Counted from the stretch's first letter, positions 4,188 through 9,167 are shown. The stretch: 64,000 nucleotides of DNA from Gemmata massiliana (GCF_901538265.1 NZ_LR593886.1:7895738-7959737); one strand, 5' to 3'. The notes: generated from the sequence alone by a model not told the origin. Numbers and translations: made by a program.

Positions 4188-4370
4188 ATGGACTTTCGAC
4201 CCCTCGCCGAAGCGGAGCGCCGCCAGCTCCTCACGGCCCTGCGCGGCCACGCGGATCGTGGCGTCGCGCTGCTCATCGATCCGAAAGACACCGGCTTCGC
4301 CGGTACCGCCGAAGACGTGCCCGACGAACAGGTGATCGCCGCCGTGAAATCGGTCCCGGTCCACTATTGA
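4188..4370 (+). CDS. Small 60-aa protein at the head of the E2/E1-like cluster
   Basis: A 60-aa acidic-amphipathic protein starting MDFRPLAEAE and ending VPVHY. It is not recognised. The ATG at 4188 is chosen because the upstream extension in the same frame is low complexity. It is 90 bases upstream of the E2-like gene on the same strand. Position and size would suit a ubiquitin-like modifier, but it does not end in the usual Gly-Gly and a beta-grasp fold cannot be shown from the sequence, so this is only a hypothesis. It may be a small accessory or adaptor protein. Confidence 0.5.
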   Translation: MDFRPLAEAERRQLLTALRGHADRGVALLIDPKDTGFAGTAEDVPDEQVIAAVKSVPVHY

Positions 4371-4460
4371 GTGCAAGGGGTCTGCGTGGGGCGCATAGGG
4401 TCCGGCCGCGCCGCGACTCTCTGATTCGCTCGCCCCGGTCCCGCGCGCCTCACTCTACCA

Positions 4461-4886
4461 ATGGGCCTTCTCGACACCGAACCCGGCAAGCGACGGCTCC
4501 TGTCCGTCGAGGTACCGGCCATCGAGCGCTACAACGCCGACCGAGATCCGGACTACCGCATCGCGGTAGCGCGGGTCGGTGGGGGGTTGACGCTCTCGTA
4601 TTGCCTGAAACCGTGCCACAACGTCTACCGGCTCGAAACGCGGTTGCTCTCCAGTTACCCGATCATGGCGCCCGAAACGCGGGTGATGACCCCGCTGAAG
4701 CACTGCCCGCACCTGCTCGAAGGGCAAACGATCTGTTTGTGGCGCCAGGGGTCCACGCGCGCGTCGAGCCGCTGGGACGCGAGCCAGTTCACCTGCGTGT
4801 TCGCGGTCGTCGCGGCGTGGCGCTGGCTGCTCTGCTACGAACTCTGGCACGAAACCGGCGAGTGGCCGTTGCCCGAGGCCAAGTAG
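4461..4886 (+). CDS. Prokaryotic E2-like (UBC-fold) protein
   Basis: 141 aa. The middle follows the plan of an E2 ubiquitin-conjugating fold: a YP (66-67) ... AP (70-71) turn, then HCPHL (81-85), then GQTICLW with Cys92 where the catalytic cysteine of UBC enzymes sits, then W105 and an aromatic helical tail (WRWLLCYELWHETGEWP). These features match the bacterial E2-like families found beside ThiF/E1-like proteins. Expected role: accept a modifier as a thioester from the E1-like partner. The next gene is that partner, 48 bases downstream on the same strand. No JAB-type deconjugase is present nearby. Confidence 0.65.
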   Translation: MGLLDTEPGKRRLLSVEVPAIERYNADRDPDYRIAVARVGGGLTLSYCLKPCHNVYRLETRLLSSYPIMAPETRVMTPLKHCPHLLEGQTICLWRQGSTRASSRWDASQFTCVFAVVAAWRWLLCYELWHETGEWPLPEAK

Positions 4887-4934
4887 CTCCGCGTTGAAGG
4901 TTTCGCCACAGTTCTCGGTTCCCGGCGTGAGCCC

Positions 4935-5967
4935 ATGCACCTGTTTCAAGTCGGCGCGGGCAGCGGCGGAATGGCCGTGCTCGATCTCCTCGCCCGCGAT
5001 TCGCGCATCACCCGCATCACTCTCGTCGAACCGGACGTCTACGCCCCGCACAACGTTTACCGGCACCTGTTCCCGCCCTCATCTGTCGGGCGTCTCAAAG
5101 CCGAACTCGCAGAAGAATGGGTTCGCGCGATCCGTCCCGATGTCACTTTTGACGCGCGTGTGGAAGACATCACCGATCCCACGCGGCAGGCCGAATTCGC
5201 GTGCATCGCATCCGCGTGTGACGTGGGCGTGTGCGCAGCGGACAACGAGGCCGCCAAGTTCGCGTTCGATGCGCTCATGCGCGCCGCGGGGAAGCCGTGG
5301 ACACTCGGCGAGGTACTGAGCGGCGGTATCGGCGGGTGGGTCCACCGCTTCGCGCCGGGTGCGGCGTGCTACGGGTGCGTCGCGAGCCATCTCAAGCGCG
5401 AAGTGACCGAGCAACCGAGCGGCCCGCCCCCGGACTACAGCAACCCGACCGCCGCACAACCCGAAGCGACTATCCCCGCGAGCAAGGCGAGCATCGCCGT
5501 GATCGCCGGAATGCACGCGATGGTGACTCTGGAGATGGTGGGGGAAAGGCAACCTAACCCCCCGTCCCCCCTCGCTCCTTGTGAGGGAGAACCCCCTGTG
5601 GGTTCCCCCTGCAACCCCCTCCTGCCAGGGAAGGGGGAGCAAAGGCAACCTACCCCCCCGCCCCCCCGCCCTAAAGGGAAGGGGGAGAAAGAACCCTCGG
5701 TCGACGTAGCTTCAGGCACAGAGGAATCGCGCGCCAGCTCCCCCTTCCCTTCAGGGCGGGGGGGGGGGGGTAGGTTCTTCCTCCCTGAGCATCCTCTTCT
5801 CACTTCAAGTGGTGCCGGGCGTATTCGATACCGCGTTCCGCGCGCACCGGTTGCGGATTCCGCGCGCGCCCACATGCCTGACTTGCGGGGAATCCGCTCC
5901 CGCACCGACCGGGAACCAACTCGATGCCGCACTGGACGACGCGCTGGCTCGTTTGGGCGCGCGATAA
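4935..5967 (+). pseudogene. ThiF/E1-like adenylyltransferase, reading frame broken by a repeat insertion
   Basis: The first ~200 codons are a clear ThiF/E1 Rossmann domain: GAGSGG (8-12), EPDVYAPHNVYRH (D34, N40, R43), the lysine of VGRLKAE, and CAADNEAAK near 100-107. A zinc-type CYGC follows at 145-148. After codon ~205 a 226-base repeat insert (5551-5776) shifts the frame. Removing it exactly restores an ORF that continues ILFSLQVVPGVFDTAF and gives the second zinc pair (CLTCGES), with its stop at 5965-5967. Native length would be about 268 aa. The current frame reads on to 6317 with a nonsense tail. Dropping one base from the 13-G run would reconnect the tail in frame. Confidence 0.75.
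5551..5776. repeat. Compound palindromic repeat insertion inside the E1-like gene
   Basis: It holds two related units. The second (5647-5776) is a complete palindrome-ended copy starting AACCTACCCCCCC and ending in a long G run plus TAGGTT. The first (5551-5640) starts AACCTAACCCCCC and looks like a partial copy. Both are preceded by AAAGGC. The ends and the GGGAAGGGGGAG segment match the element at 13182-13316, so this is a dispersed MITE-like family with no coding capacity. Length 226 = 3 x 75 + 1, which explains the frameshift in the host gene. Confidence 0.75.
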
Positions 5968-7129
5968 CCTGTTCCGCCGCACGCGCCCGCGCGCGGTCGC
6001 CGCGTTCGTCGGATACGAGCGTACCGGTGCCACGCGCTGGACCGCGCCCGTGCCGTGGACCGCGGACGCGGCCGTTCTCGACGTACAGTTCCGGTTCCCG
6101 TACCCCACCCGGCGCAAAACGGACTTCTCGCTCCGGCTCCCGACCGCCACGTTCCCCGCCGACGCACTCAAACCCGACGCGGACGAGCGGTTCCGCGTCT
6201 CGTTCCGGTTCCCGGTGCCGACCGGCACGGTCCACGGGGATCTGCTGTGGAACGGCCGCGTCCTCGCGACGGTCCCGATCGACGTTCTCACGCCGGACCG
6301 GTTCCTCACGAGCCTGAGCCTCACGAACGCGACCGTCGCGGTACGGTTCGGAGCCGGAACGGTCGCCGCGACCGCGTTCGTCCCCGAGCGCTGCGACGGG
6401 TTGTTGGCGACGGCCGTGTTGCGTTGCCCCACGGCCCTCGTTCCGCTCGCCGAACTCGGGCTGCGGGTCGTCTTTCACAACTCGCTCACCGGGCACGACC
6501 TCGTTGCGCCCGTCTCGTTGGGTGCGGCACAACTCGCGCGAACGGAAGCGGTAGTCACGGCCGTGTGCCCCGAAATGCCGCCCCCGATCGGGGCGTGGTG
6601 GGTGACGTGGATCGCGGGGACGCGCGCGTTAACGGCTCAGCGCGTTCACGTGTTCTCGGCGGACCGGTTCGCGGACGGCGTGCGCGTGCTCGAAACGCGG
6701 TTCGCGATCCTGGACGCAAACGGCACCGTTCGCACCTCGAAGCTCCCTCCGGCACTGACCGACGCGGCCCACGTGGGGCCGTGTTTCGTGCTGAGCGCGA
6801 GCGAACCGGGGGCGGCAGCACTGTGCAAATTCGAGGTCACAGGAGTCATCGACGGAGCGCCCGATCCCGCCACCCGGCGCGAAGCGGACACGATCGTGAC
6901 CGACGGCCCGACGGTATTTGTTCCCGCTGTGTTCGATGTGGATGAGCTTACAGGGGTGAGCGGCTTCGAGTTGCGTTTAAACGGACGGCTACTCGGCTCG
7001 GCGTCACTCCGCCCGGTCCCCGCGGCGCGACTCACGGGCGAAGGCGGCTTCATCCCGCCGCCGGAATTCGCTTGGTCTGCTGCCGCCGACCACGAACTCA
7101 TCGACCGCTTGAAGCGCCTCTCGGGGTGA
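5924..7129 (+). CDS. Uncharacterised 401-aa protein of the E2/E1-like cluster
   Basis: 401 aa, overlapping the native 3' end of the E1-like gene by 44 bases, which suggests translational coupling and a shared role. No signal peptide or membrane segment. The sequence is rich in beta-strand-like stretches (VLDVQFRFPYPTRR, DERFRVSFRFPVPTG) and appears to hold several beta-sandwich-like segments, with a short helical end (ADHELIDRLKRLSG). No family is recognised. It could be a substrate, a target-recognition factor or a structural partner of the E1/E2 pair. The start is uncertain because no later ATG is close. Confidence 0.65.
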   Translation: MPHWTTRWLVWARDNLFRRTRPRAVAAFVGYERTGATRWTAPVPWTADAAVLDVQFRFPYPTRRKTDFSLRLPTATFPADALKPDADERFRVSFRFPVPTGTVHGDLLWNGRVLATVPIDVLTPDRFLTSLSLTNATVAVRFGAGTVAATAFVPERCDGLLATAVLRCPTALVPLAELGLRVVFHNSLTGHDLVAPVSLGAAQLARTEAVVTAVCPEMPPPIGAWWVTWIAGTRALTAQRVHVFSADRFADGVRVLETRFAILDANGTVRTSKLPPALTDAAHVGPCFVLSASEPGAAALCKFEVTGVIDGAPDPATRREADTIVTDGPTVFVPAVFDVDELTGVSGFELRLNGRLLGSASLRPVPAARLTGEGGFIPPPEFAWSAAADHELIDRLKRLSG

Positions 7130-7166: not shown

Positions 7167-7937
7167 CTATCGCTCCCACGGAACCCGATCGTCCCAGTGG
7201 GTGTCGGTCCATTCGATTCGTTGCAGAAGTTGATAGCTCTGGTACGCGAGCACACCGAAGAGAATCGCCGTGTAGACGGTCCCGGTAGGCACCCAGGACG
7301 GCAACTGATCCGTGAACCCCGCACCCGCGCCGCGCTGGTCCATGACACAGAAGATGGAGTACGCCACGAGGAGCAGCGCACAACCAAAGGAGATCTGCAA
7401 CGAGATCCGCTGCCCGCGCCGGCCCCAGAACTTGATGCACAGTTCCCGGCTCACCTGCCCGCCGTCGAGTGGGAACACGGGGAGCAGGTTCACAAATCCC
7501 CAAATCAGGTTCACGAAGATCAAACTGCCGTATGCGTACAGTACAACGAGCGACGAACGTGGCCCCGCCCACTCGAAGGCCTGATTCGACCCGTATACCA
7601 ACCCGCACAGTAAGAACCCGGCAAACGGCCCGGCCAACGAAACAATGATCCGGCGCCAGCGCCCGGATACGGTTGCCCACGGGATCGCCAGCCCGCCGAA
7701 CGCATACAACACGATTTCGGCGTCCGTACCGAACAGGCGGAACGCGATCGCGTGGCCCAGTTCGTGAACCAGGATCGATACGAACACGACCGCGACCCAG
7801 GTGAGCAAGAACTCGGGTCCGATGTCGAGCAACCGCGACCCCATAAGGGCGTTGGCGATCCAGAACCACGGGTGGACGCGCACCGGGAACCGCAGCACGC
7901 GGAACCGGAGGTCGTATGGTGTTCGTTCCGGTTCCAC
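7167..7937 (-). CDS. Site-2 protease family (M50) membrane metalloprotease
   Basis: The zinc motif HELGHA is near residues 58-63 and the second metal-ligand motif appears in NLLPVFPLDGGQ. Several hydrophobic membrane helices flank both. This is the minimal S2P/SpoIVFB-type layout of intramembrane proteases that release regulatory proteins, with no CBS or PDZ domain visible. I prefer the GTG at 7937 (EPERTPYDLRFRVL...) because the longer ATG start at 8108 would overlap the divergent aminotransferase gene and adds non-conserved-looking sequence; other starts in between are possible. Its stop faces the 401-aa gene with a 37-base gap. Confidence 0.8.
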   Translation of the reverse strand: MEPERTPYDLRFRVLRFPVRVHPWFWIANALMGSRLLDIGPEFLLTWVAVVFVSILVHELGHAIAFRLFGTDAEIVLYAFGGLAIPWATVSGRWRRIIVSLAGPFAGFLLCGLVYGSNQAFEWAGPRSSLVVLYAYGSLIFVNLIWGFVNLLPVFPLDGGQVSRELCIKFWGRRGQRISLQISFGCALLLVAYSIFCVMDQRGAGAGFTDQLPSWVPTGTVYTAILFGVLAYQSYQLLQRIEWTDTHWDDRVPWER

Positions 7938-8045
7938 CAGCACGGTACGCCCCTCGGAAAGAAGTCGGCACGTAAACGTAACAGTTTTGGATTGTATGCG
8001 CGGCGCGTGTGAGCCACAATCGCCGCGCGAGTGCGAGGGTTTAAT

Positions 8046-9167
8046 ATGGATTGGTCCGCGTTCCGCGCGCAGTTCCCCGTCGCAAGTACCTGGGCGTTCC
8101 TCGATCACGCCGCGGTCGCGCCGCTGCCTACTCCGGCGGTGACGGCCCTACACGACTACGCCCAGAGCCTTGCGGCCAACGGCATCACCGCGTACCGCGA
8201 GTGGTTCCACCGCCTCACGCACGTTCGCGGGCTCGCCGCCCGGCTCGTCAACGCCCCGCACGCAGACGACGTGTATTTTGTACCGAACACAACGCACGGG
8301 ATCGGTGTCGTTGCCGAAGGGTTCCCGTGGACCCCGGGCGACAACGTGGTGCTCGCGGCCGAGGAGTACCCGTCGAACCAGTACCCGTGGATGAACCTCA
8401 CTCACCGCGGGGTCGAAGTGCGCATCGTCCCGAGTCGCGGAAACCGCATCGCGATCGACGACGTTCGGGTCGCGATGAACGACCGTACCCGGGTGCTTAC
8501 GGTGTCCGCGGTCGAATTCGCCAGCGGGTTCCGCCAAGATCTCGATGCCCTCGGCGCGCTGTGCCGTGAGCGCGATGTGTTCTTCTTTGTGGACGCGATT
8601 CAGGCGCTCGGCGTGTTCCCGATCGACGTGCAAAGGACGCCTATTGACGCGCTCGCAGCGGACGGTCACAAGTGGCTGCTCGGCCCTGAGGGAGCGGGCA
8701 TCGGGTTCGTGCGCCGCGAGTGGGTCGAGCGCCTGCACCCCATCGGAGTGGGGGCGAACAGCGTGGTGAGCCCGTGGGCGTTCACCACGATCGACTTCCG
8801 GCTGAAACCGCACGCGGGGCGCTGGGAGGGGGGGGCGTACAACATGCCCGGAATCACTGCGTTTGGTGCGAGCCTGGAGCTGCTCCTCAACGCGGGCACG
8901 GAGAACGTGCAGCGCCGCGTGATCGAGCTAACGGACTACCTGTGCGACCGGGCGACGGCCCTCGGCTGGATCGTGTTCAGTTCGCGCGAAGAAAACGAGA
9001 AATCCGGTATCGTGTCCCTCACGCACCCGACGCTCCCCTCCGATGAAGTATTAAGCCGGTGCCGCGCCGCCGGGATCGCGGTGAACAGCCGCGCCGGGCG
9101 CGTCCGGGTCAGCCCCCACGCTTACAACACCGAAGGCGAACTCGACCGGTTCCTGGCCGCGGTCTGA
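8046..9167 (+). CDS. Aminotransferase class V (cysteine desulfurase / selenocysteine lyase-like)
   Basis: 373 aa PLP enzyme of fold type I. The PLP lysine is in ADGHKWLLGPEGAG (Lys209), the PLP-ring aspartate in FVDAIQ (D183), and the phosphate-binding region in NTTHGIG. The ATG at 8046 is preferred to the one at 8031 because MDWSAFRAQFP is a typical family start. Members act as cysteine desulfurases, selenocysteine lyases or isopenicillin N epimerase-like enzymes; the residue set here does not decide among them. coaD follows 13 bases downstream on the same strand, so the two may be co-transcribed. Confidence 0.85.
   Translation: MDWSAFRAQFPVASTWAFLDHAAVAPLPTPAVTALHDYAQSLAANGITAYREWFHRLTHVRGLAARLVNAPHADDVYFVPNTTHGIGVVAEGFPWTPGDNVVLAAEEYPSNQYPWMNLTHRGVEVRIVPSRGNRIAIDDVRVAMNDRTRVLTVSAVEFASGFRQDLDALGALCRERDVFFFVDAIQALGVFPIDVQRTPIDALAADGHKWLLGPEGAGIGFVRREWVERLHPIGVGANSVVSPWAFTTIDFRLKPHAGRWEGGAYNMPGITAFGASLELLLNAGTENVQRRVIELTDYLCDRATALGWIVFSSREENEKSGIVSLTHPTLPSDEVLSRCRAAGIAVNSRAGRVRVSPHAYNTEGELDRFLAAV

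Follow-up and report, generated by a model that had tools for sequence, protein, structure and literature searches.

Known bacterial systems that combine an E1, an E2 and a JAB protease are mostly sporadic, and many of them are mobile defence modules. MccB adenylates the C-terminus of a peptide. Pup and UBact, which have GGE/GGQ-like tails, use PafA and not an E1/E2 pair. Here, we describe a locus with E1-like and E2-like genes in a stretch of Gemmata massiliana DNA of 64,000 nucleotides (nt) (GCF_901538265.1 NZ_LR593886.1:7895738-7959737), which is referred to as the window. The cassette occupies positions 4188-7129 and encodes a small protein of 60 amino acids (aa), designated p60, an E2-like protein, an E1-like protein and a 401-aa partner, designated p401. 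In type II cyclic-oligonucleotide-based antiphage signalling systems (CBASS), Cap2 conjugates the cyclase, a non-beta-grasp protein, via the Gly or Ala at its C-terminus, and the reaction is undone by Cap3 (PMC10097602, PMC11153139). In the BilABCD system, BilA consists of tandem ubiquitin-like domains; of the two halves of BilD, one is inactive and one active, and the protein also carries a Cys domain (PMC11354881). In operon 6d of Iyer et al. 2006, a standalone protein of the beta-grasp type is accompanied by an alpha-helical protein and by a JAB that bears an alpha+beta domain at its N-terminus (PMC1779556).

We suggest that the Gemmata cassette is a form of a dedicated, ancestrally five-gene protein-conjugation pathway, in which p60 is the likeliest modifier; the probability of this reading is put at about 0.58. 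No description of the five-gene operon, JAB-p60-E2-E1-p401, was found in the literature searched.

Results

The four open reading frames (ORFs) are located where the initial annotation had placed them on the plus strand: p60 at 4188-4370, the E2 at 4461-4886, the E1 from 4935 and p401 at 5924-7129. The reported 44-base overlap between p401 and the native end of the E1 is exact (p401 starts at 5924, and the E1 ends at 5967). Compared with relatives of the same genus, p60, the E2 and the E1 have ratios of nonsynonymous to synonymous differences (pN/pS) of 0.09-0.18; these ratios, together with conservation of the genes throughout the family, exclude ORFs arising by chance. In a sample of 95 Gemmataceae genomes, E2 orthologs were detected in 67 (a 68th match, in G040, is distant). 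The p60 gene is found in 67 genomes, always with the E2, the E1 likewise in 67, and p401 in 66, always with the E1; in the one remaining genome, p401 is cut by a contig end. The set is all-or-none: p60, E2, E1 and p401 occur together in 67 genomes and are absent together in 28, with several independent joint losses inside genera (e.g., G012 and G016 in Gemmata, G007/G008, G055 and G080/G082). Six genomes (G001, G031, G051, G052, G053 and G094) retain all four genes but have p60-E2 and E1-p401 at different locations; in G051, which is a single contig, 4.4 Mb lies between the two pairs. The initial annotation had grouped the 60-aa lead protein, the E2, the E1 and the uncharacterised partner as a candidate cassette; family-wide conservation upholds them as one module, and the gene order is clearly kept in relatives, contrary to the outcome that the initial annotation had named as refuting its proposal. 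E2s of the same genus are 82-100% identical to that of the window and E2s of other genera 55-82%, a gradation that is consistent with vertical descent. No E2 relatives were found on plasmids or phages. Apparently, the cassette is near-core and vertically inherited in Gemmataceae, as judged from these comparisons.

The E2 motifs that had been recognised, YP, HCPHL and ICLW (Cys92, codon 4734-4736), are all present, and P83, H84 and C92 are invariant among 24 relatives. The protein matches PADLOC E2 models (3.3e-9) and, weakly and below the cut-off, UQ_con; a profile search retrieved the CBASS E2 8hsb (5.9e-6) and also UBCs. We assign it as a predicted member of the E2/UBC superfamily, related to CBASS E2s.

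The E1 matches the ThiF model (8.3e-19) and the profiles of UBA5 (5.9e-13), MoeB (5e-11), MccB (7e-9) and Cap2 (2.3e-7), with MccB covered almost end to end. Adenylation-site residues G5-G10, D32, N38, R41, K53 and D101 are conserved in the alignment. The invariant cysteines are C143, C146, C239 and C242, which form two CxxC pairs of the zinc type; outside these pairs, comparison of the aligned residues revealed no conserved cysteine except the near-invariant C98, beside the nucleotide-site residue D101. The protein is classified as a member of the E1/ThiF superfamily, with a single domain of ~270 aa of the ThiF/UBA5/MoeB type.

It should be noted that the E1 of the window is frame-broken. It had been described as an E1-like protein with GAGSGG and paired CxxC; the ThiF/E1 identity stands, but the two CxxC motifs fall in different frames, because the frame is broken at a linker insert. 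The N-terminal 203 residues (4935-5543), comprising an adenylation domain that contains GAGSGG and the first CxxC, are followed by a frame-shifting, GC-rich palindromic insert of inverted and direct repeats (5544-5784). The native C-terminal part (LSILFSLQVVPGVF...CLTC...LARLGAR), which contains the second CxxC and matches the C-terminus of intact relatives, is encoded one frame over, at 5785-5967. The 460-aa E1 ORF is not native: past residue ~203 it crosses the insert (5544 to ~5784) and exits in the wrong frame. Within the insert, the E1 frame stays open as far as a 13-G tract (5758-5770), which is the sole run of at least nine G or C across the window and a place where slippage or a sequencing error is likely. 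Related GC-rich palindromic repeats are found at the identical E1 linker in several other Gemmata genomes, where they are mostly in frame. A break of this kind was detected in only 3 of the 67 cassette genomes, namely the window genome (G000), G009 and G090; in a few further cassette genomes, the E1 is cut by contig ends. The break in the window may be a phase switch, a recent loss or a sequence error.

The initial annotation had proposed a different layout without JAB, and this has to be abandoned. In contig L114, an ORF directly upstream of p60 contains HTHPGSLRHPSDGD, which carries the JAMM signature HxHx7Sx2D, and the family-wide search extended this result: a JAMM/JAB gene with the intact signature opens the operon, 16-161 nt upstream of p60, in most other Gemmataceae genera, the deepest (L067-L075) included. 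Residues E113, H174, H176 and D187 are invariant and S184 nearly so, and the match to the Prok-JAB model is above the cut-off. The gene is present in 46 of the 95 genomes, all of them among the 67 cassette genomes; none of the other 28 has it. All Gemmata lack it, as do G031, G052, G053, G072 and G073. No JAB of the operon type was found in the window or its genome, where the sole Prok-JAB protein (L113) is short, standalone and of another type. As read from these genomes, the complete operon has the order JAB-p60-E2-E1-p401; the absence of JAB is a derived state of the genus Gemmata and also of a few other lineages. L114 itself (IMGVR_UViG_3300047160_030190), which carries JAB-p60-E2-E1, is filed as viral and is probably a mis-sorted Gemmataceae fragment.

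Close E2 relatives are confined to Gemmataceae in a phylum-wide sample of 392 planctomycete genomes, and distant E2-E1 pairs occur in a few others. Beyond Planctomycetota, the analysis covered bacterial and archaeal genomes by a single pattern scan, made with the window E2 and sensitive to close relatives only. The order JAB-small protein-E2-E1-partner is kept in two other planctomycete families. In G175 (locus L087), it consists of a JAB, a 65-aa protein ending in HYAGR, the E2, the E1 and a 473-aa protein. In G228 (locus L090), a small protein ending in RHGG is followed by the E2, the E1 and a protein of ~460 aa, with the JAMM gene on the end of the preceding contig; this order spans a contig join with a 74-base overlap that is 96% identical. 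The small protein of G175 scores higher against the p60 profile than all 1000 of its own shuffles.

The p60 protein has the core MDFRPL..ERR..L..ALRG and the end SVPVHY, in which S55, V56, P57, H59 and Y60 are invariant across 27 relatives. In most lineages the protein terminates directly after HY, and p60 of the window ends in Tyr. Some relatives carry a tail past HY: A (G001), AVVSGQ (G060), AG (G056), AGI (G057), GR (G058) and, in five genomes of one genus, KL. All tailed p60 proteins belong to JAB-bearing genomes; with only five tailed Gemmataceae lineages and a chance probability of about 0.15, we rejected this association as an established link. Relative to the C-terminal Gly or Ala of CBASS-conjugated proteins, p60 of the window with its Tyr does not conform, while deep relatives end in AG, AGI, GR and GG. 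The initial annotation had suggested a comparison with the beta-grasp fold, among others; the AlphaFold2 (AF2) model of p60, which is of low confidence (predicted local distance difference test, pLDDT, 61), has two helices (8-23 and 46-54) and no strands. The model lends no support to a beta-grasp fold, although p60 may still have one. Neither p60 nor p401 has a match among Pfam, NCBIfam and PADLOC models.

The AF2 model of p401 (pLDDT 85.3) consists of an N-terminal helix, a chain of immunoglobulin (Ig)-like beta sandwiches and a C-terminal helix. Its structural matches (Foldseek, VIA) are generic Ig/FN3 sandwiches (filamins, FN3, cytokine receptors and TEP1) with low TM-scores; function could not be assigned by fold, since no specific relative was among them. 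No conserved C-terminal tail was found among p401 relatives, and for this reason activation probably does not take place at the p401 C-terminus. The overlap of the p401 and E1 genes and their constant pairing suggest that p401 is a scaffold, receptor, adaptor or target.

Several other E2 loci were observed. In a distant planctomycete (L088:5542-8442), a 60-aa ORF ending in YYIEG accompanies two adjacent E2s, an E1 and a JAB, one of the two E2s being fused to a Phd/YefM-type domain. In L089:8092-10346 and L091:2118-4643, an E2 and, after it, a JAB-E1 fusion lie next to a Cas2-like gene; type III CRISPR-like genes are found near the L091 locus. We considered the 60-aa ORF of L088 and the N-terminal extension of the L091 E2 as relatives of p60 and rejected both, the similarity being not significant. 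Four CBASS-like loci (L100, L101, L102 and L104) contain a nucleotidyltransferase and a lone E2, with a patatin-like effector in L102 and L104; their E2s end in W..xYExWxxTGxW, as does the Gemmataceae E2. In two other planctomycetes (L117 in G112 and L118 in G095), a canonical HPN-type E2 is followed by a JAMM protease, which is a different system.

Downstream of p401, on the minus strand at 7167-8108, lies a gene for a membrane protease of the M50 (site-2-protease) type (Peptidase_M50, 1.8e-16). Of 31 testable loci, 13 have a convergent M50 gene 3-200 nt past the p401 end; they represent seven genera and include the deepest lineages, and the gene is possibly an ancestral neighbour or accessory. 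Beyond the five-gene set, M50 is the only recurrent neighbour; other conserved neighbours are mostly shadow ORFs. Neither recurring biosynthetic genes nor a CD-NTase or recurrent effector were found in the neighbourhood of the cassette.

Discussion

Under the reading that we prefer, a conjugation pathway with p60 as the modifier, the E1 with ATP would adenylate the C-terminus of the small partner, most likely p60. In favour of this reading are the joint presence or absence of the four genes, even when split; the JAB, which never occurs apart from them; the shared order in two further families; the tails HYAG, HYAGI, HYGR, HYKL, HYAGR and HGG of deep forms; the CBASS precedent; and the near-complete profile match between the E1 and MccB. 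The acyl-adenylate would probably be handed directly to Cys92 of the E2, forming a thioester there; direct transfer is proposed because the E1 cysteines are limited to the two CxxC pairs and C98. The E2 would then ligate the small partner to a target, which p401 most likely holds or is itself. JAB, where present, would remove the conjugate and may trim the tails past HY. A more specific version of this reading is tentative, with odds somewhat below even: p60 would represent a new class of covalent modifiers of ~60 residues, helical or disordered and non-beta-grasp, activated by E1, carried by E2, matured and removed by JAB and used in Gemmataceae as a near-core housekeeping tag, the mature end of which would have changed in derived lineages, from Gly to His-Tyr.

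Several results weigh against p60 as the modifier and against the pathway in general. The residue that follows HY varies (nothing, A, AG, AGI, GR, KL or AVVSGQ), and most p60 proteins terminate in Tyr, compared to the C-terminal Gly or Ala that is required in CBASS; a C-terminal Tyr is atypical. The C-terminal features of p60 would suit a binding peptide equally well. The confidence of the p60 model is low. The small protein of G228 is weak against the p60 profile (32 of 1000 shuffles score at least as high, which is not significant), and no similarity between p401 and the large partners in G175 and G228 could be detected or aligned, so that only position and length agree. The E1 is broken in three genomes, that of the window among them. 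Conjugation itself is something that we infer from the genes.

An alternative explanation accepts conjugation and regards p60 as an E2-binding cofactor or adaptor, the modifier being p401, another protein with its gene elsewhere, or a beta-grasp protein that was not detected here. We consider it rather unlikely. In its favour, p60 stays with the E2 and the E1 with p401 in split cassettes, the terminal residue of p60 is variable and usually Tyr, and the related E2s of L089 and L091 bear an N-terminal extension and lack a separate small protein. Conversely, p401 has no conserved tail that could be activated, the L091 extension shows no significant similarity to p60, and the adjacency of JAB and p60 and the Gly-bearing tails of deep lineages fit a modifier.

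The system could also be decaying in the window strain, as the lack of JAB throughout Gemmata and the broken E1 of the window genome and G009 might indicate. This is unlikely: between the window strain and G009 the nonsynonymous divergence (dN) of p60 and the E2 is 0, the pN/pS of the E1 N-terminal part and p401 is about 0.1, and the insert is open up to the 13-G tract, where slippage or a sequencing error may account for the break.

Anti-phage defence of the CBASS or Bil kind is suggested by the closest E2 and E1 profiles, which are PADLOC defence models, and by the nearest solved E2, which is the CBASS E2 8hsb. We regard it as quite improbable, given the near-core distribution, the graded E2 identities that fit vertical descent, and the lack of a CD-NTase, a recurrent effector and plasmid or phage matches. 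Sulfur transfer or biosynthesis of a small molecule or peptide in the style of ThiF, MoeB or MccB, with no protein tagging, accords with the single-domain E1, its lack of a Cys domain and its profile matches, but is very improbable for a cassette with a dedicated E2 with an invariant Cys, a JAMM partner and no recurrent biosynthetic genes nearby.

A near-core distribution and apparently vertical inheritance in a cell-biologically unusual family suggest that the cassette may encode a housekeeping protein-tagging pathway. If p60 is indeed the modifier, the E1-E2 cascade would not be bound to the ubiquitin fold, which bears on the origin of ubiquitin signalling.

Comparison with Known Systems

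Pup and UBact resemble p60 as candidate modifiers of about 60 aa that are poorly structured; they differ in their tails and in the use of PafA instead of E1/E2. With MccB and UBA5-type single-domain E1s, the cassette shares a minimal E1 architecture, but neither of these pairs with an E2 of the Gemmataceae type plus p60 and p401. Among the operon types 6a-6e of Iyer et al., which share JAB, E1, a separate E2, a small protein and a possible Gly tail, 6d has the nearest layout (PMC1779556); the Gemmataceae operon differs in its predicted multi-Ig-like partner and predicted helical p60. BilABCD (PMC11354881) likewise unites E1, E2, JAB and a partner in a single operon, whereas p60 in Gemmataceae has 60 aa and no strands in a low-confidence model, and the E1 is one domain of ~270 aa.

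Type II CBASS with Cap2/Cap3, together with the E2-only forms (PDB 8hsb), has E1/E2/JAB chemistry and a related E2 with the same C-terminal motif, and it demonstrates conjugation of a partner that lacks the beta-grasp fold. In contrast, the Gemmataceae system is without a CD-NTase or effector, its E1 and E2 are encoded separately, p60 and p401 have no relationship to Cap proteins, the E1 is without a recognisable catalytic Cys, and the distribution is near-core and not sporadic. As a system in which the tag is a protein of non-ubiquitin fold, type II CBASS would nevertheless be the closest working model for the pathway proposed here.
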